Source: Schizochytrium sp. TIO01
Taxonomy: Eukaryota > Sar > Bigyra > Thraustochytrida > Thraustochytriidae
Direction: 5' to 3'
DNA: 64,000 nt
NCBI GenBank assembly: GCA_004764695.1
Contig: SMSO01000032.1
Coordinates: forward strand, 8,948,668-9,012,667
The notes below the pieces were generated by a model that was given only the letters and a program-made list of their open reading frames with translations, was not told the DNA's origin and searched no databases. Shown piece by piece: positions 941 through 37,453 of this stretch (position 1 is the stretch's first letter; every line of letters begins with the position of its first letter). Made by a program: the position numbers and the translations under genes.

Positions 941-3058
941 CTAATTAAGAACCATATCACGGAGGAGCTCTGAAATACGCTGATCATTCTTAGCAATGGA
1001 GGCCTTGAGAGTGGCAATACGGCTTTGTTTATCTTTGATGTTCTCATCAATTTCGGTAAGTTTTCCACGCAAGGGGAGAAGTGTTTCGGAAGTGACACGT
1101 TGTTCATCTTCCATAGCGTCACAGCACTTGCGATACTCATTTTTCCACTTGTCGAGTTCCTTGGACATGGCTGTGAGGTCTTCGTGCACGAAATCCATGC
1201 ACTTGCCCAGTGGGTTAGTGCTCTGGCAAACAAGTTGGATCGCAGACCTGATCTTGTCCACGTCCACGACACCGGCAGGCTTGCCTTTGCCACCCTTGTG
1301 GAGACCCTGTCCGATCTTACCCATAGTAATGCCTCGCGAGGTCGGCCGCTCATCAGATTTAGCTTCGTCATTCGCCTCTGGGCGTGTGTCTGCTGCATCC
1401 TGCTTCTGTTCGTCATCAAGAATATCTCTCACAAGACGACTCTTGAGCTGCTGCTGGCCATCGTCTAGGGAAGGGTCCATGTTCTCGTTGGCACCACTAC
1501 GCCGACGGCTGAGAGCACCATCCTCATCCTCCTGCTCATCTTCATCAGAGTCATTATCACCTTCCCGCATCACGCCAACTGGAGCTCCCTGACCACGGGA
1601 AGGTGGTTTCTCCATAGCACCAGCAGTGCGTTCTCGAATTTTAGGTGGACGCTTGCGAGCTGTCTGCGGTCTGGCGAGATTTTTGCGATCCGAGGGTTCT
1701 TCAATTGTCCTGCGGTCAGTTTCTTTAGATTCGGGGCCTGTGTCTTCGGACTCCTTGGCCTCAATTGGTGAGTTTTCTTCGGCTGCGTCATTTCGAGCAG
1801 CGGAAGAGTCTGCTGCGCTTCTTGTCGACGACTTACGTGGACGCTCCTCACCGCGGACGTTGTCGGGTTCCATCTGCTGGGAGGAGCGAGAAGACCTGCT
1901 GTTATGCTTGGGCAGGTCTTCCTCCTCATCATCATCATCGCCACCCTTTAGCTGCACTTGCTCGGTAGCAGGAGCAGCTTCACCCCCCCCCAATGCAATG
2001 CGAACAGCCTCACTTGGTGGAACTGCATAAGCCTCGGATGAGGTTGCCAAAATAGCCAACATTTGTAAGAGCATGTTTGTCTTGTCAGACTCCTGACCAG
2101 CAACAATGCGAGAAGCATTTGCGTCTACTGGGACGCCACTACAAATTTCTACAAAACGAATAAGTTTCTCAAGATACCCGAGCTTGGCTTCCTTTGAGGT
2201 GCATTGCTTGGAATCTAGCTCTTCGCCTTGGAAGAGGCCTTCCATGAGACCTGTCGCGCTACGGAGGCTAGTCATTACATCGTGGATAAAGCGAAAGGGG
2301 GGGCGGCTCAACAGTTTTTCTGTCATTTTTGGCTTGCGAATGATATCACCATAAAGACGAATAGTAGTGCCAATGTCACCGTCCACCCCGCTAAGTTGGC
2401 CAGATTCATGATTTGATTTAGTCTCACTAGGCTCAGGCTCCTTTGACTCTGCCGGCGGAGGTGCTTCTGCTGCCGAGGAGTTTGAACGTGATTTGCGGCG
2501 GGGCTTCTCCTGCTCTTTTGATTCATCTGTTGCAGCTGAGCGATCTTCAGCCTCGCCCATTGGCGCAGCTTTTGTAGACGGTTTTTTGCTGCTTTCTTGA
2601 TGATCTTCTGCTTTGGACTCGCCTCCTTGTCGAGGTACACGTCCAGGAGGCACGCCGTCAAGCGCCAAACGTGATGCAGCTGCGTAGTCAATAGTACTAT
2701 CCATTGCTGCTTTTGCAAGGGCTTGGAGCAGAATATTTGTGTTAAGAGCCTCAGCGCCAGCCACAATCTTTGCCTCGCGTACGTCAATGGCTTCCCCCAT
2801 GCAGATACTTGCAAAGGCAATAATTTTATGCAAAAAGTCTAGCTTTCCTTGTTTACTGTCTTTGATGTTTCCAGAATCTTGCTCTTCAGCAGTGAGCAAA
2901 GCATCTACAAAGCCCGTCTTGCTATTCATCCCCATTACAATGTCGTGCAAAAACCGGAAAGGGGGTCTCGAGAGTAACTTTTCCGTCATCTTCGGTTTCT
3001 TGATGAGCCCCCCTACGAGAGATTGGGTCTCAGCGATGGCATCCTCGAGCGATGCCAT
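941..3058 (-). CDS. IFT54: Intraflagellar transport protein IFT54 (TRAF3IP1/MIP-T3) with doubled N-terminal domain
   Basis: A 705-residue protein, close to human TRAF3IP1 (about 690). IFT54 is an IFT-B subunit that carries tubulin and other cargo along the axoneme; its N-terminal calponin-homology-like domain binds tubulin and its C-terminal coiled coil binds IFT20. Residues about 8-115 show the family core: KPKMTEKLLSRPPFRFLHD, then IVAGAEALNTNILLQ. The same core returns at about 228-345 (KPKMTEKLLSRPPFRFIHD, then IVAGQESDKTNMLLQ). So the N-terminal domain is present twice, joined by a Lys/Ser/Glu-rich linker. Residues about 360-590 are charged and disordered. Residues about 591-705 form the conserved C-terminal MIP-T3 coiled coil. 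One uninterrupted exon; ATG at 3056-3058, TAG stop. The doubled domain is odd: known IFT54 proteins carry one copy. Confidence 0.9.
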   Translation of the reverse strand: MASLEDAIAETQSLVGGLIKKPKMTEKLLSRPPFRFLHDIVMGMNSKTGFVDALLTAEEQDSGNIKDSKQGKLDFLHKIIAFASICMGEAIDVREAKIVAGAEALNTNILLQALAKAAMDSTIDYAAASRLALDGVPPGRVPRQGGESKAEDHQESSKKPSTKAAPMGEAEDRSAATDESKEQEKPRRKSRSNSSAAEAPPPAESKEPEPSETKSNHESGQLSGVDGDIGTTIRLYGDIIRKPKMTEKLLSRPPFRFIHDVMTSLRSATGLMEGLFQGEELDSKQCTSKEAKLGYLEKLIRFVEICSGVPVDANASRIVAGQESDKTNMLLQMLAILATSSEAYAVPPSEAVRIALGGGEAAPATEQVQLKGGDDDDEEEDLPKHNSRSSRSSQQMEPDNVRGEERPRKSSTRSAADSSAARNDAAEENSPIEAKESEDTGPESKETDRRTIEEPSDRKNLARPQTARKRPPKIRERTAGAMEKPPSRGQGAPVGVMREGDNDSDEDEQEDEDGALSRRRSGANENMDPSLDDGQQQLKSRLVRDILDDEQKQDAADTRPEANDEAKSDERPTSRGITMGKIGQGLHKGGKGKPAGVVDVDKIRSAIQLVCQSTNPLGKCMDFVHEDLTAMSKELDKWKNEYRKCCDAMEDEQRVTSETLLPLRGKLTEIDENIKDKQSRIATLKASIAKNDQRISELLRDMVLN

Positions 3059-23037: not shown

Positions 23038-24747
23038 ATGGGTGCAGATCAGTCTGTGGATGCCGGGCCCGGACCTTCGTATGAGCCACCAGAGCTACCA
23101 GAATTCCTGCAGGAGTCGCCTACAGGGTACCGTGTGCTGGCGATCCAGGAGAACTCCCCAGCGTGCCGCGAGGGCATTGTACCTTTTTTTGATTTTATTG
23201 TAGAGGCGAACGGCGCAGGCCTGCAGCAAGAGGATGGTACCTTCGTTCAGACAATTCGCGCCTTTGAGAATAAGCCATTGACGATCACGCTCTTCAACAT
23301 CAAGTGCAAGCAACTGCGGCAGCTTTCATTCGTGCCGAGACGCGGTTGGGGCGGTGATGGCTTGTTGGGCCTGACCATCAAATTCGACAGTTTTAAAGAC
23401 GCCGACGACAAGGTCATTCACATCCTCGACGTCGTGCAAGGATCGCCAGCTGCTGAAGCCGGGCTTCAGCCTCACACGGATTACCTTCTCGGTACACCGT
23501 ACACGGCCTTCGCCGATGTAGATGAACTCTTCGACTTGGTCTCGGAAGTTGCTGCTGAGAATGAGTTCTCAAAACCGAGAGGCATCGACGTTTTCGTCTA
23601 CTCTACCGCAACAGATACTGTACGACGAATCGTGCTCACGCCGCGTTCAGGATGGGGAGGGAGCGGTGTGCTCGGCTGCGGAATTGGCTTTGGCTACCTG
23701 CATAGACTCCCAAGGTCCGTGCTAGATAGTACAGGTGTTGCACGGGTTGAGGATCTCATTGCTGTACAACCGCGGTCAGCATCGACGCCGCCTACCACCA
23801 CAACACAAATTCAGAAAGCGACAGAAACTCAAAATACCCTTAACGAACCGGAGGGTACAAAGGTATTCGTAGACCCATCCATGCAGACAACATCGACACA
23901 TGAAAATGAAAAGGTGCCAGCGGGTGACACACAAGCAACACAGACTTATTCTGCACCTTTGACTTCGACCGTAGACTCTTCAGGCGAAGCAAAAGCAATG
24001 ACACAAGACGAAAATGATTTGGAGACTACATTTGCAAAAGACCAACCTGTGTCAACTCATCAGATGTTACACTCTGCCCCTATTGAAGATGATCATGATG
24101 ATAATGACAATAATGAGGCTGAAAGCGAAGATGAAATTGATCAGCACGAGGATGACAATGAAGACGCTGAAGAAGAGTACAACGACGAAAACGATGATGA
24201 TGAGGACGATGAAGATGATAATGATGATGCTCACGACCACGACTACGACCACGACGATAATGACAATGATAATGATGAAGATGATGACGACGATGCTGAT
24301 GAAGACGATGAAGATGATGATGAAGATGAAGATGAAGAAGATGAAGATGAAGAAGATGATGACGATGATGATGATGATGATAATGAAGACGATGATGAAG
24401 ATGATAATGAAGACGATGATGAAGATGGTGAAGATGATGACGTTGATAACGATGACGACGTAGATGAACCAGAGCACGTTGCAGACCTCCTTGCTGGTCA
24501 ATGGGTCTCCACGCCCAGTGGACCTGGTATATTGCTAGGCCGCAGGTCCAACGGCACGTTTGTTGTTTCTTTAGACTGGAAACTAGCAAATGGTGCTTCA
24601 TGCTTCGCTTTTCTTCAGCGAACAAGTCTCCATCCTATTGCAAACCCCAATGCCCCAAAGACGTCTTCCCCCGAGCACAATGGCCCTCAGGAAGATCAGC
24701 ACAAAGTCATTGATGTCAACCTCGGCCGTCCACACCCCTCATCATAG
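23038..24747 (+). CDS. GORASP: GRASP (Golgi reassembly-stacking protein) with acidic tail and C-terminal domain
   Basis: A 569-residue protein. It starts MGADQS, which fits the N-myristoylation rule (Gly2, Ser6), and the ATG has an ACCACCATGG context. Two PDZ-like GRASP domains follow: about 27-115 (GYRVLAIQENSPACREGI, FFDFIVEANG) and about 115-228 (WGGDGLLGLTIKFDSF, GSPAAEAGLQPHTDYLLG, WGGSGVLGCGIGFGYLHRLP). GRASPs sit on Golgi membranes, tether cisternae and act in unconventional secretion. Residues about 230-350 are Thr/Gln-rich. Residues about 351-480 are almost only Asp, Glu, Asn and His. Residues about 483-540 form a small extra domain, VSTPSGPGILLGRR then VVSLDWKLANGASCF, a beta-rich pattern that I recall from other stramenopile proteins. 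Usual GRASP tails are Pro/Ser-rich; this one is odd. One exon, TAG stop. Confidence 0.92.
   Translation: MGADQSVDAGPGPSYEPPELPEFLQESPTGYRVLAIQENSPACREGIVPFFDFIVEANGAGLQQEDGTFVQTIRAFENKPLTITLFNIKCKQLRQLSFVPRRGWGGDGLLGLTIKFDSFKDADDKVIHILDVVQGSPAAEAGLQPHTDYLLGTPYTAFADVDELFDLVSEVAAENEFSKPRGIDVFVYSTATDTVRRIVLTPRSGWGGSGVLGCGIGFGYLHRLPRSVLDSTGVARVEDLIAVQPRSASTPPTTTTQIQKATETQNTLNEPEGTKVFVDPSMQTTSTHENEKVPAGDTQATQTYSAPLTSTVDSSGEAKAMTQDENDLETTFAKDQPVSTHQMLHSAPIEDDHDDNDNNEAESEDEIDQHEDDNEDAEEEYNDENDDDEDDEDDNDDAHDHDYDHDDNDNDNDEDDDDDADEDDEDDDEDEDEEDEDEEDDDDDDDDDNEDDDEDDNEDDDEDGEDDDVDNDDDVDEPEHVADLLAGQWVSTPSGPGILLGRRSNGTFVVSLDWKLANGASCFAFLQRTSLHPIANPNAPKTSSPEHNGPQEDQHKVIDVNLGRPHPSS
24091..24468 (+). repeat. 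GAT/GAC/GAA low-complexity tract coding the GRASP acidic tail
   Basis: About 380 bases of Asp/Glu/Asn codons. It gives long open frames on both strands (Met/Thr-rich on plus, Ile/Val- or His-rich on minus) that are shadows. Confidence 0.9.
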
Positions 24748-26512: not shown

Positions 26513-29500
26513 ATGGATGCACAGGGCTGGTCTACGGAAACCTTGCTCACGGCGACACACAACACGTTGCGTAGGAGCAAGGTTGATGGCAGGCCTGTAA
26601 CTCTAACAGACGTGGAGAATGTGTGGGAGAACCTCGGCGTTTTCCTCCAGCAGGCCCTTAAAGAGGGACGGGCAACACAGCTAGTTAAATTTGGTACATT
26701 TGCTCCAAATAACACGATGCGCAAATCTAGACCTGAAAATTCATGGAGCTTGTATTTGGCATCTGATTTTGTGGCAGGTTGTGGCATACGACAGCGCAAG
26801 GCAGGGGCTACCAAGGTCCACGGTGCTGCGCGATTAAACTTTCTGGGGCTAGCTAAATTTAGCCATCTACCCAAGGATCTCTGTCGCAAGGTTGTAGAGA
26901 CAATCATTTGGACAATCACATTTGCACTCACGAAAGACAAATCATGGATGCGTCTCGAATTTCCAGGCCTTGGTCTTTTCCAGTGCCAACATGGTGTTTG
27001 TGATTTTCTTTTTGGTCGGGACGGCACATTGAGCGAAAACAGAGACATTCGTAACGAGGATCTAGCCTTTTCTGAGGATGGCGACGCAGACATGTACTAT
27101 AATAACGCTACCAATAGTGAAGACGAAGAGAGAGATGAAGAAGACATGAGGGGTACACATTTGCAACCTCAGAGCCAACTCCGGGACCATATTGGTATCA
27201 AAACACAAAACCGATCGGGGCAAATGCCAGAGCACCAAGAACAAGCACGACTTCAGCCGCGTGCGTCACAGCAAGCCGCACCAGTACGCCGAATTGTAAT
27301 CCCGCCTTCTATGGACCGCCTTCGCGAAAAGGTGACACAGCGTGGAGGCGCTAACGGTATTCACAGTCTTAGTAGGCTTCTTCGAATCATGGATAACTCT
27401 GGTGACCGCTGCCTTGATCGTGAGGAGCTCAAGTATGGCTTGCAAGACTATGGAATTCGTATCAATAACTCGGAGCTTGAGGAGCTGTTTATGTTTCTTG
27501 ACCGCGATCGCAACGGAAAGATCAGTATCGACGAGTTCCTCATCGGTATGCGTGGACCTTTAAGTAAGCGACGTATTGAGCTTATTCACATCGCATTTAA
27601 ACGTTTAGACCGTACAGGTGATGGATTTGTCACAATTGAGGACCTTGAGCTGGCATATGATTCCTCTCATGACCCCGACGTGAAAGCAGGGCGTACAAAG
27701 CCCGCAGATGCACTTCGAAATCTTCTTGCACAGTTCGACACACAAGACAAGGACGGCATTGTTACAAGAGAGGAGTTTGAGGATTATTACAAGAATGTGA
27801 GTGCATCCATTGATAACGATGACTACTTTGAACTCATGATGCGTAATGCATGGCATATTTCAGGCGGACAAGGGCAGTATGCCAATACTAGCAATCGTAG
27901 AGTTTTAGTCACTCACGAGGATGGGTCTCAGACCATTGAAGAGATACAAGATGATCTTTGGGTAGACAAGAATGACCAGGATGAAATGAAACGTCGCCTC
28001 GCTCAGCGAGGTGTAAAAGCATCCGGACAGCTAGGCCTGTATAACGCAACAGACTCAACAGAATCTGCGCGAACGGCCCACCGGCCGAAACGGTTTTCTG
28101 AGATCCAAGGAGGCAAGGCAATGCCCCAAGGTCTGCAACAACCTCGCAAGGCAGTAGCCATCGCATCCAAAACTAAAGGAGTTCAATTTCGTCAGCACAT
28201 GCAGGATGAGGGAGATGAAGCACTTCCTGTGGAACCTGTACAAAATATTGACAAATCTGGCGACCTAGCACCAACAAGTTCTGCAGCCACTAGCTCCAAA
28301 ACTGCCACTTCTGAAGACCCTATGCAGAAACTAGGCAAGCTATTGCAGCAACGACGCCTGAGTGTTGACGACTTTCTGCTGCGAATTGGTGCGAACCGTG
28401 TGGTTGGAAGTGCCAGCATTGACGTCCCTGGCTTTATAAGAGGCCTTTCACGATTCGATCCTTCGCTATCTGCCGAGGAAGTTCAAGCTATTGCTAAAGC
28501 TGCAGATGCCGATCGATCTGGGTCAATTGATGTTGCAGAGTTGTGCGCGTATCTACAAGGATCCAATGCTGTGGAGCGCATCAAAAGTGCTGTTTTACAG
28601 CGTGGAGGTATGAATGGTATCATCTCACTGACACGTATCCTACGCAACATGGATACTTCCAGGGATGGGGCTCTAGATCGTCGCGAACTCACGGATGGAT
28701 TTGCAGCCTTGGATGTCAAACTCAACTCTAAAGACGTCCAGGACATTTTTGCGTTCTTTGACAAGGACCGCAGTGGTAAGATTAGTTTTGATGAATTTCT
28801 TATAGGATTTCGAGGTGAGCTCAACTCTCGCCGACGGGATCTCGTGCTCATTGCTTTCTCACGCATGGATCGGACCGGAGACGGTGTAATTACAGTAGAT
28901 GACCTTGAGCTTTCTTACGACCCATCACACCATCCAGAGTTCATGAGTGGTGCAATGACCAAAACACAAGTTTTGCGTGAATTTTTGGACAGTTTTGATG
29001 GTCTTGAAAAAGATGGCATCGTAACACAAGAAGAATTCCTCGATTACTACAAAGGTCTAAGTGCGTCCATCGATGATGACAACTACTTTGAGCTGATGAT
29101 GCGAAATGCGTGGCACATATCGGGTGGACAAGGTCAATATGAAAACACCACGAACAGACGTGTGCTTGTTACAGACGCCTCGGGGGAGCAGAGTGTTAAA
29201 GAAGTGAAGGATGACCTGTACTTCGATGCTAGTGACGCGGATAATCTTCATAAGCGTCTTGGCCTGAACAAAGAATCTTCTACCAGCAATTATTTTGCAA
29301 GTGATGCCACGGGAAAAGCTCGCGATACGTCCAAGCGCCCAGCACGTTTTCAACAAAAGGTAAACGACGCCCCTCAAACGAATATGCGCACAAGAACCAA
29401 TGCATCACAAAAGTCTACCTTTGCAAAATTTGGCCCTTCCAGAGCCAAATCTCAACTTGCCTGGGGAAGACCTTCGAGCGTTGATCAAGGGCAAGATTCA

Positions 29501-30787
29501 TTTATGATGAATGGAGGAGACGAAAGCCTTCCTGGTGGTCCAGCACCCTCGTCAAAACAAACATCACGCTTGGGCAGGTTTTCCTCAAAAGTTCGAACCA
29601 CCCCTGGAAGTGCACAACGTCGATCGTCTTCTATTCAAAGTCAAAACATACCAAGACGATCCCAGCAAGCCACAGAACCTCATGCTCTCGGGATGTTGCG
29701 CGAGCGAGTGGTCAAAAGAGGCGGAACAAATGGTATTCACACACTTGGTCGAGTGCTACGCATCATGGATGACTCAGGGGATAAGAGTCTTGATCGAGAG
29801 GAGCTGAAATATGGCCTCGAGGACTATGGTATCAAATGTACGCCCGCAGAGTGCGATGCTCTTTTTACATATTTAGACAGAGACGGAAGTGGTAAAATCA
29901 GTTTTGATGAATTCTTGGCAGGCATGAGAGGGCCGGTGCCCGAAAGAAGAGTAACGTTAATTAAGATGGCGTTTCAACGCCTTGATCGCACTGGAGATGG
30001 CCAAGTCACTGTTGAAGATCTTGAAATGATCTATGACCCCTCTTTTCACCCAGAAGTACGCAGTGGAAACTTAACAAAAGCACAAGCCCTTCGTGAGTTT
30101 TTGTCGCAGTTTGATACTATTGACAAAGATGGCATTGTAACTGAAGAAGAATTTATTGAGTACTACAAGAATGTTAGTGCTTCGATCGATAGCGACGACT
30201 ATTTCGAGTTAATGATGAGAAATGCATGGCATATTTCAGGAGGCCAAGGTCAGATGGCCAATACTACGAATCGTCGTGTATTGGTCACTCATGAAGATGG
30301 CCGTCAAAGCATCGAAGAAGTTCAAGATGACCTGTGGGTAGATAAGGACGACGAAGCTGAAATGAAGAGGCGCCTTGCAAAGCGAGGAGTCAAAGCCCAG
30401 GGTTCATTAGGAATGTTTCATGCCAGTGACGATACACACGCTCCTAAAAACATCGGTAAGCGTCCCCAACTTTCGCACCGCGGTCCACGTCAACCTCAGT
30501 CACAGCACAAGCACAGAGAAACTACAATCTCTTTGGCATGGGATGAACCTGAAGACCTCAACGCTTCGCAGGCCAAGATTCGTATGGCACGAGAGCGAGA
30601 ACGCAAAATCCGTGCTGGAGCTGCAACAAGAGTTCAAGCGGCAGTAATAGCCCACCGAGCAAAGCGCAAGACTGAGATGCTTAAGCGTAACCAGCAGACA
30701 AAACAAGCCCAAGAGCAAGAAGTTCAGCAAGAGCGCCAAGCTCAAGCACGCCGCATCATTCGTCCAGCTGGTCCGAATTGGTATTAG
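26513..30787 (+). CDS. HU-like (CCDC81-type) domains, three calcyphosin EF-hand modules and an IQ motif
   Basis: A 1424-residue protein from the ATG at 26513 (the longer frame starts at TTG). Residues about 4-80 and 85-190 resemble the eukaryotic HU domains of CCDC81, a centrosomal protein (WSTETLLTATHNTLRRSKVD, GRATQLVKFGTFAP). Three homologous calcyphosin-like modules follow, starting at about 266, 687 and 1060. Each has EF-hand loops such as DNSGDRCLDREE, DRDRNGKISIDE and DRTGDGFVTIED, then KDGIVTxEEFxxYY, and ends with YFELMMRNAWHISGGQGQ and NRRVLVT. A further EF-hand pair lies at about 603-683 (DADRSGSIDVAE). An IQ-like motif is at about 1370 (TRVQAAVIAHRAKRK). So about a dozen EF-hands in one chain, plus a possible calmodulin site. 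A calcium-responsive ciliary or basal-body scaffold is inferred. One exon, TAG stop. Confidence 0.85.
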   Translation: MDAQGWSTETLLTATHNTLRRSKVDGRPVTLTDVENVWENLGVFLQQALKEGRATQLVKFGTFAPNNTMRKSRPENSWSLYLASDFVAGCGIRQRKAGATKVHGAARLNFLGLAKFSHLPKDLCRKVVETIIWTITFALTKDKSWMRLEFPGLGLFQCQHGVCDFLFGRDGTLSENRDIRNEDLAFSEDGDADMYYNNATNSEDEERDEEDMRGTHLQPQSQLRDHIGIKTQNRSGQMPEHQEQARLQPRASQQAAPVRRIVIPPSMDRLREKVTQRGGANGIHSLSRLLRIMDNSGDRCLDREELKYGLQDYGIRINNSELEELFMFLDRDRNGKISIDEFLIGMRGPLSKRRIELIHIAFKRLDRTGDGFVTIEDLELAYDSSHDPDVKAGRTKPADALRNLLAQFDTQDKDGIVTREEFEDYYKNVSASIDNDDYFELMMRNAWHISGGQGQYANTSNRRVLVTHEDGSQTIEEIQDDLWVDKNDQDEMKRRLAQRGVKASGQLGLYNATDSTESARTAHRPKRFSEIQGGKAMPQGLQQPRKAVAIASKTKGVQFRQHMQDEGDEALPVEPVQNIDKSGDLAPTSSAATSSKTATSEDPMQKLGKLLQQRRLSVDDFLLRIGANRVVGSASIDVPGFIRGLSRFDPSLSAEEVQAIAKAADADRSGSIDVAELCAYLQGSNAVERIKSAVLQRGGMNGIISLTRILRNMDTSRDGALDRRELTDGFAALDVKLNSKDVQDIFAFFDKDRSGKISFDEFLIGFRGELNSRRRDLVLIAFSRMDRTGDGVITVDDLELSYDPSHHPEFMSGAMTKTQVLREFLDSFDGLEKDGIVTQEEFLDYYKGLSASIDDDNYFELMMRNAWHISGGQGQYENTTNRRVLVTDASGEQSVKEVKDDLYFDASDADNLHKRLGLNKESSTSNYFASDATGKARDTSKRPARFQQKVNDAPQTNMRTRTNASQKSTFAKFGPSRAKSQLAWGRPSSVDQGQDSFMMNGGDESLPGGPAPSSKQTSRLGRFSSKVRTTPGSAQRRSSSIQSQNIPRRSQQATEPHALGMLRERVVKRGGTNGIHTLGRVLRIMDDSGDKSLDREELKYGLEDYGIKCTPAECDALFTYLDRDGSGKISFDEFLAGMRGPVPERRVTLIKMAFQRLDRTGDGQVTVEDLEMIYDPSFHPEVRSGNLTKAQALREFLSQFDTIDKDGIVTEEEFIEYYKNVSASIDSDDYFELMMRNAWHISGGQGQMANTTNRRVLVTHEDGRQSIEEVQDDLWVDKDDEAEMKRRLAKRGVKAQGSLGMFHASDDTHAPKNIGKRPQLSHRGPRQPQSQHKHRETTISLAWDEPEDLNASQAKIRMARERERKIRAGAATRVQAAVIAHRAKRKTEMLKRNQQTKQAQEQEVQQERQAQARRIIRPAGPNWY

Positions 30788-32797: not shown

Positions 32798-35700
32798 ATG
32801 CTTGGACAGAATAATGATAAAGAACAAGAGGATCTCTGCATCCATGTCTCTAGTGGAGAACCTGCTACAAAAAGTTCTTCCAGTTTATTTCTTTCAGACG
32901 AAGAGAGTATGGACTATCCTGTTCAAAATGACACTGATCCGGAGTGTAGTATAAAGCGAGTGTCTGATGCTACATTCTTGAACATGAAGCCAAGCGTGGA
33001 TAGTACTAGCAGCTCCCATGCTGATGATGAAGTCAATCGCGTGCGCTGCATGCTTAATCGACTTCAACAAGAAGCTGATAAACAGCACAAAGAAACTCCT
33101 GAGGATGAAGATCCTTCTCTTTCGATCGCATTAACTCCAGCGGAGATTAAACTTCTCACATCTTTGCTAGACCGCGGGTACCTTCGACTGCCACATGAAA
33201 CCTTGCGTCACTCTCTGCCTCCACGCACCCGGAAACTTACAGCAATACAGTACTCTATGATTCTTTCACGCGTACGTGGAGATGGTCATTGGCCTGTTAA
33301 TGTGGGTTTTCGAAACCTTGAGTACATAATCAAGGTACCTAAAGCTGACGCTGGAATTCCTACGGTTGGATCGACACTCTATAAAGTGGTTGCACCCCTG
33401 GTGAATCTATTTTATAGCAAGACCAAAGAGTCAATTGAGATCCCGGTACTGTGCAAGGTATCAGGCGCATTTGAGGCAGGAACATCAACACTTGTACTTG
33501 GTCCTCCTGGATGCGGTGTGACATCTTTATTTAAAGTTCTAAGTGGTAGAGCCAAAGTTGGCGGGCGGTATAAACTCAAGGGAGAGCAGTTTTACTCTGG
33601 TTTTCGCCCTGAAGATCTACATTTGCGCAAGCTAGCCATGTATGTAGACCAAATGGACCAGCATACAGCTGTATTGACAGTGCGCGAAACTTTGAAATTT
33701 GCATATGAATGTTTTGGAGGGGCTCAGACGGCAGTCCGCGTAGTTGCATTTCCAGGCACGAATCAAGAGGCTACCGAAGAAGAGAAAGCTAGAATCATCG
33801 AACAGCTCGAGAACTACCCCGATTTCATTATTCACAACCTTGCACTGGACCGTGCCGCTGATACTGTAGTAGGAAACCCTATGCTCCGTGGGGTTTCTGG
33901 TGGCGAGAAGAAACGTGTGACATCTGGTGAAATGTTAATGGCAAGGCGCCCTCTCACATTTTACGATCAAATTTCTACTGGTCTAGACAGCGCAGCTACT
34001 TTTGATATTTGCCGGCGAATCACTAAAGTGGCTCAGACGCTTCATCTTACACCAGTTGTATCTCTCCTTCAACCCCCACCAGAAGTGTATGATCTTTTTG
34101 ATGAAATCCTTATTCTCGCCCTTGGATATGTCGTGTATCATGGCCCGCGCGAAGATGTCCTACCTTACTTTTCTAGTATTGGTTTCGAGTGTCCATTTGA
34201 TCGTGACATTGCTGACTTTATCCAGGAGGTAACAACTTCAGCGCGAGTTAAATACCAAGTGAAGAATGATGCACCGCAAAATGAACAAGAGATGGCCTTT
34301 GCATGGCAGATCTCCTCATATTCAGAAGCCAAGCGCAGAGCAGTAGACAGATATTGCAATCCTACTAACAAAGTTGACAGTGCAACACGAGCCCTCCTGT
34401 ATGATAAAAGCACTGATGTTTACGCAAATCCATTTTGCAAAGAGTTTCAGTTGGTTCTCCGACGACAAGTACAGTTGGTGCTTCGAGATCCAGCATTTAT
34501 CAAAGCTCGGTTTATGCAGTCTATCATCATGGGTGTTCTGATTGGTACGGTGTTTATCCGCATTGATCCTGCATTGCCTACGAGTATTGATGCCATCAAC
34601 GTGACACCCATTACGCAGCGTTATGGTGTGATGTTTTCTACACTTATGCAATGCACATTTGCAGGTATGGCTCAAGTCCCTATTGTTCTGGGGCAAAGGC
34701 CTGTCTATTACAAGCAAAGCTCTTCCTTCTTCTTTCGCACAGTAAGCTATGTACTTGGTGAAGTTGTTTCAGTAATGCCGATAGCAATTGTAGAGTCCAT
34801 CTTGCTTGGTCTTCCAATGTTTTGGATTACCGCAATTGTTCCCTGGGGAGCAGACTCACAGACTGGAGATTCGGATGTGGGTGCATGCTTTGTCATTTTC
34901 CTTTGTATTATGATCATTCTGAACATTTCTTTTGCCTCGTTTTTGCGTGCTGTAGCAACCTTTGTACCAACGCCAGGCATTGGGCAAGCCATTACTGGCA
35001 TTTGCGCCTCTGCTGCAATGATTTACAGTGGCTTCGTTGTAGTACGCAGTGCAATGCCCCCATGGTTCGTATGGATTTACTATCTTTCCCCCATTGCATG
35101 GGCCTATCGCGCAGCTGTGATTACCATTTTCTCGTCCAAAGCATTCACACCGGAGCAAACCGCATTTGCGCTTGAGCTGTTTGACTTTGAACAAAATGAG
35201 GAATACATTTGGGCTGGCGTTCTAATGCTTATTGGATATACCTTTGTAAATATTGCGCTCAGCTATATTGGTTATTCGCATTTTCGTTACGACTCTTCAG
35301 CCCGCCAGACGAAAGTTAATCTACTTTCTGAAGGTGTGCGAGATGCTAATTTGATTAAAAGAGGGGATCGGCGCATGGAACAACGATTGGATGAGGATGC
35401 ACAGTCAACAGCAGAAGAAGTTCTGCCTCAATATGATCTTACCAGCAGACATAAATTGCGGATGGAAAGTTCATTGCAGAATGACAATTTTATCCCCGTG
35501 GACTTAGTCTTTCGAAACCTGTGGTACTCGGTCCAAGGACCAGATGACAAGAAGGGTAAATATTCGCTTGACTTGCTTAAGGATGTGTCTGGTTTTGCTG
35601 AAGCAGGTACACTAACTGCTTTGATGGGCAGCAGCGGTGCTGGAAAGACTACACTGCTTGATGTGCTTGCATTGCGTAAAACGAGTGGACTTACGCAAGG

Positions 35701-37453
35701 GCAAGTGCTCGTCAATGGACATCCTCAAGAAAAGATAACATTTTCTCGGATTGTGGGCTACGTAGAACAGAATGACATCCATAGCCCATTTGCTACTGTG
35801 GAAGAGGCACTGATTTTCTCTGCTACCCTTCGTCAGTCAGCAAACCTTCCTCGTGAAGCAAAGGAGAGCTTTGTAGAAGGTGTGATTGCAACATTAGACC
35901 TATCAGACATTCGGGATTTCAAGATTGGCTCTAAATTCTCTGGAGGGCTGACAACAGAGCAAGTGAAACGTGTTACAATTGGCGTGGAGTTGGCTGCAAA
36001 CCCAGCAATTGTTTTTGCAGATGAGCCCACCTCAGGTCTTGATGCAAATTCAGCGCGTGCAGTCATGATTGGGCTTGAGCGCATTGCTCGAGCAGGTAGA
36101 ACAGTAATTTGTACTATTCACCAGCCGTCCAAAGATATTTTTCTAAAATTTGATCGCTTATTACTGCTACAGCGAGGCGGTGAAATTGTATATTTTGGGG
36201 ATCTAGGTGAGAGGGCATGCCATTTATTGAATTATCTAGCAGGTATTCCAGGGACACCTCAAATTCCCAACGCACGGTACAATCCAGCAACGTTCATGTT
36301 AGAGGTGATAGGTGCAGGAGCAAACTCCCAACGGAATACCGAAAGGATTGTTGACTTTGCCTTGGAGTATCGGGAGAGCCAGTTGTTTCAAGATGCAGAA
36401 GCAAAGATAAGCAGCATAATTGACAGCAACTTGGACAACCGGGCAGCAATAGCTTTTGATCAAAGCTTTGCAAGTAATTTCTCCACGCAGCTCGAACAAT
36501 TAACCAAGCGTTGGCTGCGAGCCTATTGGCGAAACCCTGGATATAATACTACGCGAATCACTATGACTGTGTTCATTGCAACATTTTTTGGTTTGACATT
36601 CTTGCAGCAAGCCAAAGAACTTAATCGTACGCAGGATGTTCAAAGCTTTTGTGGTCTGTTGTACATTGCCACTGCCTTTACAGGCGTCATTGCAGTCAAT
36701 ACTGCGATTCCTACGATTATGGAGGAACGAGCTCCATTCTATCGTGAACGTGCAGCTTCGTATTATGGAGTTGCACCCATGATTTGTGCTATTACCTCTG
36801 CAGAGGTTCCGTATGTTATTGCGGGAACAGTAAGTTGGTGACGTGCGTCGTGCTTAGAATTGCAAAACTTGCAAATGGCTGGATTTTTTGCTAAACTCAC
36901 AACATTGAACTCACCATTACCTTGTCCGAATGTTTTGTATGACTCACAGCTACTTCACATTCCTATATTTTACTTCCTTGTCCATTTTTGGTACAACGTG
37001 AGAGCGTTTTTCCTTTATTGGTTTGTCTATCTCATGTACATGCTGGTGATGACCTTTTGGGGACACTTTCTAGCCAGTGTTTCTCCAAACCAGCAAGTGG
37101 CAGCAATCATAGGCTCCATTTCATTTGGGCTTTGGGTCTTAACTGCTGGTATGGTGATTGCAGTAAAGGACATCCCTAAATTTTGGTACTGGTTGAGTTG
37201 CATTAACCCGATTCGATACGCATTCAATGCTTTGGTAGTTATTCAACTAGGGTGCGAGAGTTCAGAAGATAGCGATGCACCTGGGTGCGCAGCCCTCCCG
37301 AATGGAATTACAGCTTGGGCATTTGTGCAAGATAACTTTGGGTTTGAAGCTAATGACTGGGTGTATTGCTTGAGTGCGCTTGTAGGCTTTCTCGTGGGGT
37401 TTCGAGGATGCACAATTCTGGCTTACAAATACGTTTCTTTTCTTCGCAGATAA
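32798..37453 (+). CDS. Full-size PDR-type ABCG transporter, two exons
   Basis: Exon 1 32798-36829 and exon 2 36950-37453 join in phase to a 1511-residue protein; the joint reads VIAGT-LLHIPIFYF inside a membrane segment. Order is NBD1-TMD1-NBD2-TMD2, the pleiotropic drug resistance layout, which exports lipids and hydrophobic compounds across the plasma membrane. NBD1: Walker A GPPGCGVTS at 235-243 (Val241 where Lys is needed), signature VSGGE 366-370, Walker B ends YDQ with Gln391 in place of the catalytic Glu, and Gln425 in place of the switch His. NBD2: Walker A GSSGAGKTT with Lys950, signature-like LTTEQ 1051-1055, Asp1075-Glu1076, His1108, all intact apart from the usual PDR signature change. 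So one composite ATP site looks dead and the other works, as in fungal Pdr5. TAA stop. Confidence 0.93.
36830..36949 (+). other. Intron of the PDR transporter gene
   Basis: A 120-base phase 0 intron with donor GTAAGT and acceptor ACTCACAG. Reading through gives a stop within four codons (SW then TGA); splicing restores the last TMD. Confidence 0.9.

Follow-up and report, generated by a model that had tools for sequence, protein, structure and literature searches.

Within the 64,000-nucleotide stretch analyzed here (the window; contig SMSO01000032.1 of Schizochytrium sp. TIO01, positions 8,948,668 to 9,012,667), a single-exon gene, designated P0001, encodes a 1424-residue protein that begins with two CCDC81-type HU domains and continues with three calcyphosin modules. 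Judging from its domain content, its relatives, and the genes for the inner-junction partners CFAP20 and PACRG in the genome, P0001 is probably a microtubule inner protein (MIP) of the CCDC81B kind, and would be located in the flagellar doublets of the axoneme rather than at the basal body.

Reading frame and domain composition of P0001

The reading frame of P0001 (26513-30787 of the window, + strand) was open for 1424 codons and was found with a 100% match at G000:C31:8975180-8979451 of the assembly. When codon usage was scored in frame in blocks of 100 codons, all blocks as far as residue 1400 were above zero, those of the linker between the HU and EF-hand parts among them, and only the final 24-codon block was slightly negative (-2.3). 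No GTRAG-type splice donor was detected in a scan of this linker. It is very improbable that the gene model is an artefact in which the HU part and the EF-hand part come from separate transcripts, as the unbroken frame without stops, the coding signal across the whole linker, the lack of a splice donor therein, and the identical HU-then-EF-hand layout of CCDC81B from Tetrahymena all argue against it. The single 1424-residue exon proposed in a previous sequence-only reading of this stretch was thus borne out.

The second HU domain (residues 104-169; 26822-27019, + strand) was recognized by the Pfam family HU-CCDC81_euk_2 (PF18289) at residues 106-169 with 31.3 bits in the protein scan, over the cut-off of 26.1, and with 36.7 bits in the genome search. 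Directly before it, HU-CCDC81_euk_1 (PF14908) matched residues 32-64 of the first HU domain (about residues 8-92; 26534-26788, + strand) with 24.7 bits, slightly below the cut-off of 26.1 in the protein scan, whereas the six-frame genome search gave 29.0 bits and thus exceeded it. Residues 1-180, modelled with AlphaFold from three sequences (pTM 0.73), fitted solved CCDC81-type HU pairs across both domains, including 8snb_1K and 8v3l_A. With both Pfam matches lying inside residues 4-190 and the model in agreement, the two CCDC81-type HU domains anticipated from the sequence were confirmed. In the PDB search, an HU profile likewise built from three sequences matched sea urchin CCDC81 from sperm doublets (8snb, E 1.1e-10; PMC12551952) and Tetrahymena CCDC81B (8v3l, E 7.7e-6). 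The four top fold matches of the HU pair were all doublet-microtubule chains, namely sea urchin CCDC81 (8snb_1K, Z 12.3), Tetrahymena CCDC81B (8v3l_A, Z 11.6), a T. brucei chain (9e2g_2N, Z 11.3), and a further Tetrahymena chain (8g2z_0T, Z 10.5). A chain of the Mycoplasma gliding machinery also matched with Z 10.0. Bacterial HU matched far more weakly (Z about 6) than the doublet-microtubule chains (Z 10-12), and DNA binding by the HU pair was therefore discounted.

The EF-hand part comprises three homologous modules, each carrying a NAWHISGG tail: module 1 at residues 263-520 (27299-28072; Ca loops at 294, 330, and 366), module 2 at residues 683-935 (28559-29317; loops at 714, 750, and 786), and module 3 at residues 1055-1312 (29675-30448; loops at 1086, 1122, and 1158), all on the + strand. 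These assignments were based on module alignment and loop reading, together with domain and profile searches for module 1, domain search for module 2, and PDB profile and fold searches for module 3. An extra EF-hand pair (residues 626-682; 28388-28558, + strand), identified by domain search and loop reading, lies ahead of module 2 and has one canonical loop at 665 and a degenerate partner, and a low-complexity basic linker, 55% of which is S, T, Q, P, G, or N, separates modules 2 and 3 (residues 936-1054; 29318-29674, + strand). The NAWHISGG block starts at residues 445, 865, and 1237, and the modules were 68% (M1-M3), 55% (M2-M3), and 53% (M1-M2) identical over 253-258 positions, as compared with 37-43% identity to the other calcyphosin modules of the genome (loci L004, L005, and L006). 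Meanwhile, the fourfold-degenerate sites common to the module pairs were identical at 15 of 59, 23 of 70, and 17 of 57 positions (25-33%), near the 27% expected by chance, so that the modules stem from old duplications inside the gene itself and have been maintained by protein-level selection.

The calcyphosin identity of the modules, likewise proposed from the sequence, was upheld by the end-to-end alignment of these units of about 255 residues with CAPS and CAPSL, and the tailed triplication and the extra EF-hand pair were also as that reading had described them. Module 3 matched CAPSL (E 6.1e-50) and CAPS (E 5.2e-43) by profile, showed about 40% identity to CAPS, and fitted the calcyphosin structure 3e3r_A with Z 15.6 over 176 aligned residues. 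Ranking next behind CAPSL and CAPS in the PDB were the doublet proteins RIB57, RIB22, RIB35, CFAP161A, DMIP20, DMIP21, DMIP23, and EFCAB6; radial spoke protein 7 was also among the relatives. The C-terminal NAWH...NTTNRRVLV...DDL block, characteristic of the DMIP21 group, is present in P0001, and the tail searched alone matched two trypanosomatid doublet proteins, 9e2g_0T (3.7e-15) and DMIP21 (2.6e-11), with nothing else below E 0.6. The EF1 and EF2 loops were canonical in all three modules, the EF3 loop carried D, not E, at position 12, and EF4, as read by eye, had no first acidic ligand. Binding of Ca2+ by the EF loops of P0001 is thus plausible from their sequence.

The C-terminal IQ-like motif that the same reading had included was not supported. 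The Pfam IQ family was not matched even at E 10 in the protein scan of P0001, and the candidate stretch VQAAVIAHRAK (residues 1374-1384; 30632-30664, + strand) has I and A where IQxxxRGxxxR calls for R (position 6) and G (position 7). Scans of viral contigs with P0001 and with the module profile, and of genome contigs with the module profile, yielded no relatives, as would be expected of a eukaryotic flagellar protein.

Relationship to Tetrahymena CCDC81B

CCDC81B of Tetrahymena thermophila (UniProt I7M688; PDB 8v3l/8v3i) is similar in size to P0001 (1535 versus 1424 residues) and, like it, carries an N-terminal CCDC81-type HU pair (residues 43-192) followed by several EF-hand modules. A joint profile combining the CCDC81B HU stretch with the calcyphosin modules was built so that CCDC81B ranked first and its alignments were displayed, and its EF-hand matches were located at residues 336-464, 483-678, 733-927, and 1127-1342. 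Each of these was weak alone (4.8-11.2 bits), and their loops, e.g. DANKDGYINYTD and DADQDGFLTINE, could be read as EF-hands. The fold search with module 3 retrieved residues 713-896 of CCDC81B (8v3l) with Z 8.9 over 147 aligned residues and a root-mean-square deviation of 13.2, the latter probably reflecting a differing arrangement of the two lobes. Since a known MIP already presents an HU pair with tandem EF-hand modules, the earlier view that this domain order is without a described precedent did not hold; what is new in P0001 is that a CCDC81B-like frame carries modules of the calcyphosin type with NAWH tails. Among the literature matches listed, there was no relevant structure for stramenopile or thraustochytrid doublet lumen proteins.

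The genome encodes a second HU-pair protein, the CCDC81-like L002. In pairwise shuffling, the HU pair of P0001 scored z 17.0 against CCDC81B but only z 8.9 against sea urchin CCDC81; for that of L002 the order was reversed (z 9.2 and 13.5, respectively). These opposite scores fit P0001 as a CCDC81B-type and L002 as a CCDC81-type gene, although identities of about 20% are too low to establish orthology. A sub-threshold HU-CCDC81_euk_1 match was also observed in a 480-aa frame (L031; G000:C35:1228452-1228592, - strand), which gave no significant score when paired with the other HU pairs (z 1.3 against P0001) and is left unassigned. As single sequences, neither L002 nor L031 gave a usable match in the PDB.

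Proposed location, mechanism and alternatives

CCDC81b, together with BMIP1, is a MIP of the 48-nm repeat. In wild-type Tetrahymena it has been described from the inner junction of the axoneme alone, the basal body lacking it (PMC11961760), and its signal serves as a marker of the proximal cilium (PMC12399478). Of the two sites that had been suggested for P0001, basal body or axoneme, the axonemal microtubule link was thus retained, both domain families matching doublet lumen proteins, while the basal body became the weaker option. In the genome, CFAP20 was found with 314 bits and PACRG at three loci (L026, L027, and L028), and the DM10 proteins encoded there likewise speak for the lumen assignment. 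In other lineages, PACRG likewise has paralogs, which alternate with one another at the inner junction.

As a lumen protein, P0001 would be anchored through protein-protein contacts of its N-terminal HU pair close to the A-B inner junction, in the neighborhood of CFAP52, PACRG, and CFAP20. The three calcyphosin modules, with flexible linkers of about 100-180 residues between them, would attach at regular tubulin intervals along the luminal wall or to adjacent lumen proteins, thereby bracing the B-tubule, and a 16-nm spacing of the modules would fill the 48-nm repeat. Possibly, Ca2+ on EF1-EF3 of each module could alter stiffness or docking; EF-hand lumen proteins may also be purely structural. 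Trypanosomatids have eight lumen proteins with EF-hand motifs, the calcium binding of which was termed only potential (PMC7617938).

Several observations weigh against this assignment. The HU-pair identities were only about 18-22% (22% between P0001 and CCDC81B), CCDC81B has four EF-hand modules rather than three, which are too divergent to place (4.8-11.2 bits each), so that orthology is only a possibility, and it has no detectable NAWH tail. Moreover, some trypanosomatid EF-hand MIPs, e.g. DMIP23, are located at the A-tubule seam, and the inner junction of the B-tubule is hence not the sole possible site (PMC7617938). Among the literature matches listed, there was no relevant structure for stramenopile or thraustochytrid doublet lumen proteins.

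The protein could instead be an independently assembled inner-junction ruler, in which a CCDC81 HU anchor took over NAWH-type calcyphosin modules that elsewhere are lumen proteins in their own right, so that roles divided in other lineages between proteins of the IJ34/CCDC81 and EFCAB6/DMIP types would be united in one protein and Ca2+ would tune the bracing per module; we regard this as rather unlikely. It also appears unlikely that P0001 is a scaffold of the basal body or centrosome that responds to calcium, its calcyphosin modules serving as independent switches. CCDC81 is a centrosomal protein, which favors such a scaffold, as do the canonical EF1 and EF2 loops of all three modules. HU/IHF clades and the centrosome were reportedly treated by Burroughs et al. 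in 2017. The accumulation at the ciliary base of CAPS2, which combines DM10 with calcyphosin-type EF-hands (PMC10973386), points in the same direction, but the nearest relative by layout, CCDC81b, was reported from the axonemal inner junction only, and the relatives of the NAWH tail are axonemal lumen proteins. The remaining option, that P0001 sits on the outer face of the axonemal doublet (as part of the docking complex, a dynein regulator, or a radial spoke) and senses Ca2+ through its calcyphosin modules to control the waveform, was judged quite improbable: EF-hand proteins of the radial spoke do exist, as exemplified by radial spoke protein 7, but the top structural and sequence relatives of both halves of P0001 are doublet-microtubule chains, the named members of which are lumenal.

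If P0001 is indeed a CCDC81B-like lumen protein, the HU-plus-EF-hand MIP layout would extend beyond ciliates to this genome, and the CCDC81 and EF-hand families, which alternate at the CFAP52 site across species, would be united in one chain. It would also offer a way to tell passive-brace from calcium-sensitive EF-hand MIPs in the axoneme.

Genomic surroundings and comparison with known systems

In the window, a MIP-T3/IFT54 (TRAF3IP1) gene was identified by Pfam PF10243 and PF17749 at 941-3058 (- strand), placing a ciliary transport gene 23 kb from P0001. The other neighbors are GRASP55/65 at 23038-24747 (+ strand), with a very long aspartate/glutamate-rich tract behind its PDZ-like region, and a full-size ABC transporter at 32798-36841 (+ strand), with two ABC and two ABC2-membrane domains, which looks to be of the PDR type from Pfam. 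Elsewhere in the genome, L004 (G000:C31:7650606-7651301, - strand) encodes an EF-hand module with a NAWHISGGEG tail and an N-terminal region resembling CFAP161/DMIP23 by eye only, and L005 is a lone NAWH calcyphosin gene. The single frame of L006 (G000:C30, about 4591-4593 kb, - strand) encodes a calcyphosin module and, behind it, two DM10 domains; the arrangement is CAPS2-like, with the EF-hands first. DM10 proteins were also found in an 801-aa and a 1039-aa frame, with three DM10 matches each.

Among the known systems, sea urchin CCDC81 (8snb) and Tetrahymena IJ34 share the CCDC81-type HU pair with P0001 and have been placed in doublets, but no calcyphosin modules were seen in them in this comparison; L002, with an HU pair, no EF-hands, and a charged coiled-coil-like C-terminus, fits CCDC81 better than P0001 does. 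IJ34 is a CCDC81 homolog, and CFAP52 is stabilized by IJ34 in Tetrahymena and by EFCAB6 in bovine cilia (PMC10105768). DMIP21 of Leishmania (9e78) and 9e2g_0T of T. brucei resemble P0001 in that the NAWH/NTTNRRVLVT/DDL tail comes after an EF-hand domain of the calcyphosin type, but have one such module and no HU pair, in contrast to the three modules and HU pair of P0001. CAPS (3e3r) and CAPSL (11yj), the latter present as 40 chains in one PDB entry, correspond to a whole four-EF-hand module with about 40% identity, but are single modules with neither the NAWH tail nor an HU pair. The MIPs EFCAB6 (bovine and mouse) and TtCFAP115 are, like P0001, large proteins with repeated EF-hand domains, whereas their described layout is without an HU pair and their EF-hands are not NAWH-tailed. 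Of these, TtCFAP115 with its four EF-hand pairs spans 32 nm, while CrFAP115 with one EF-hand pair repeats at 8 nm (PMC10105768), a comparison that provides a model for a multi-module EF-hand protein as a ruler in the lumen.

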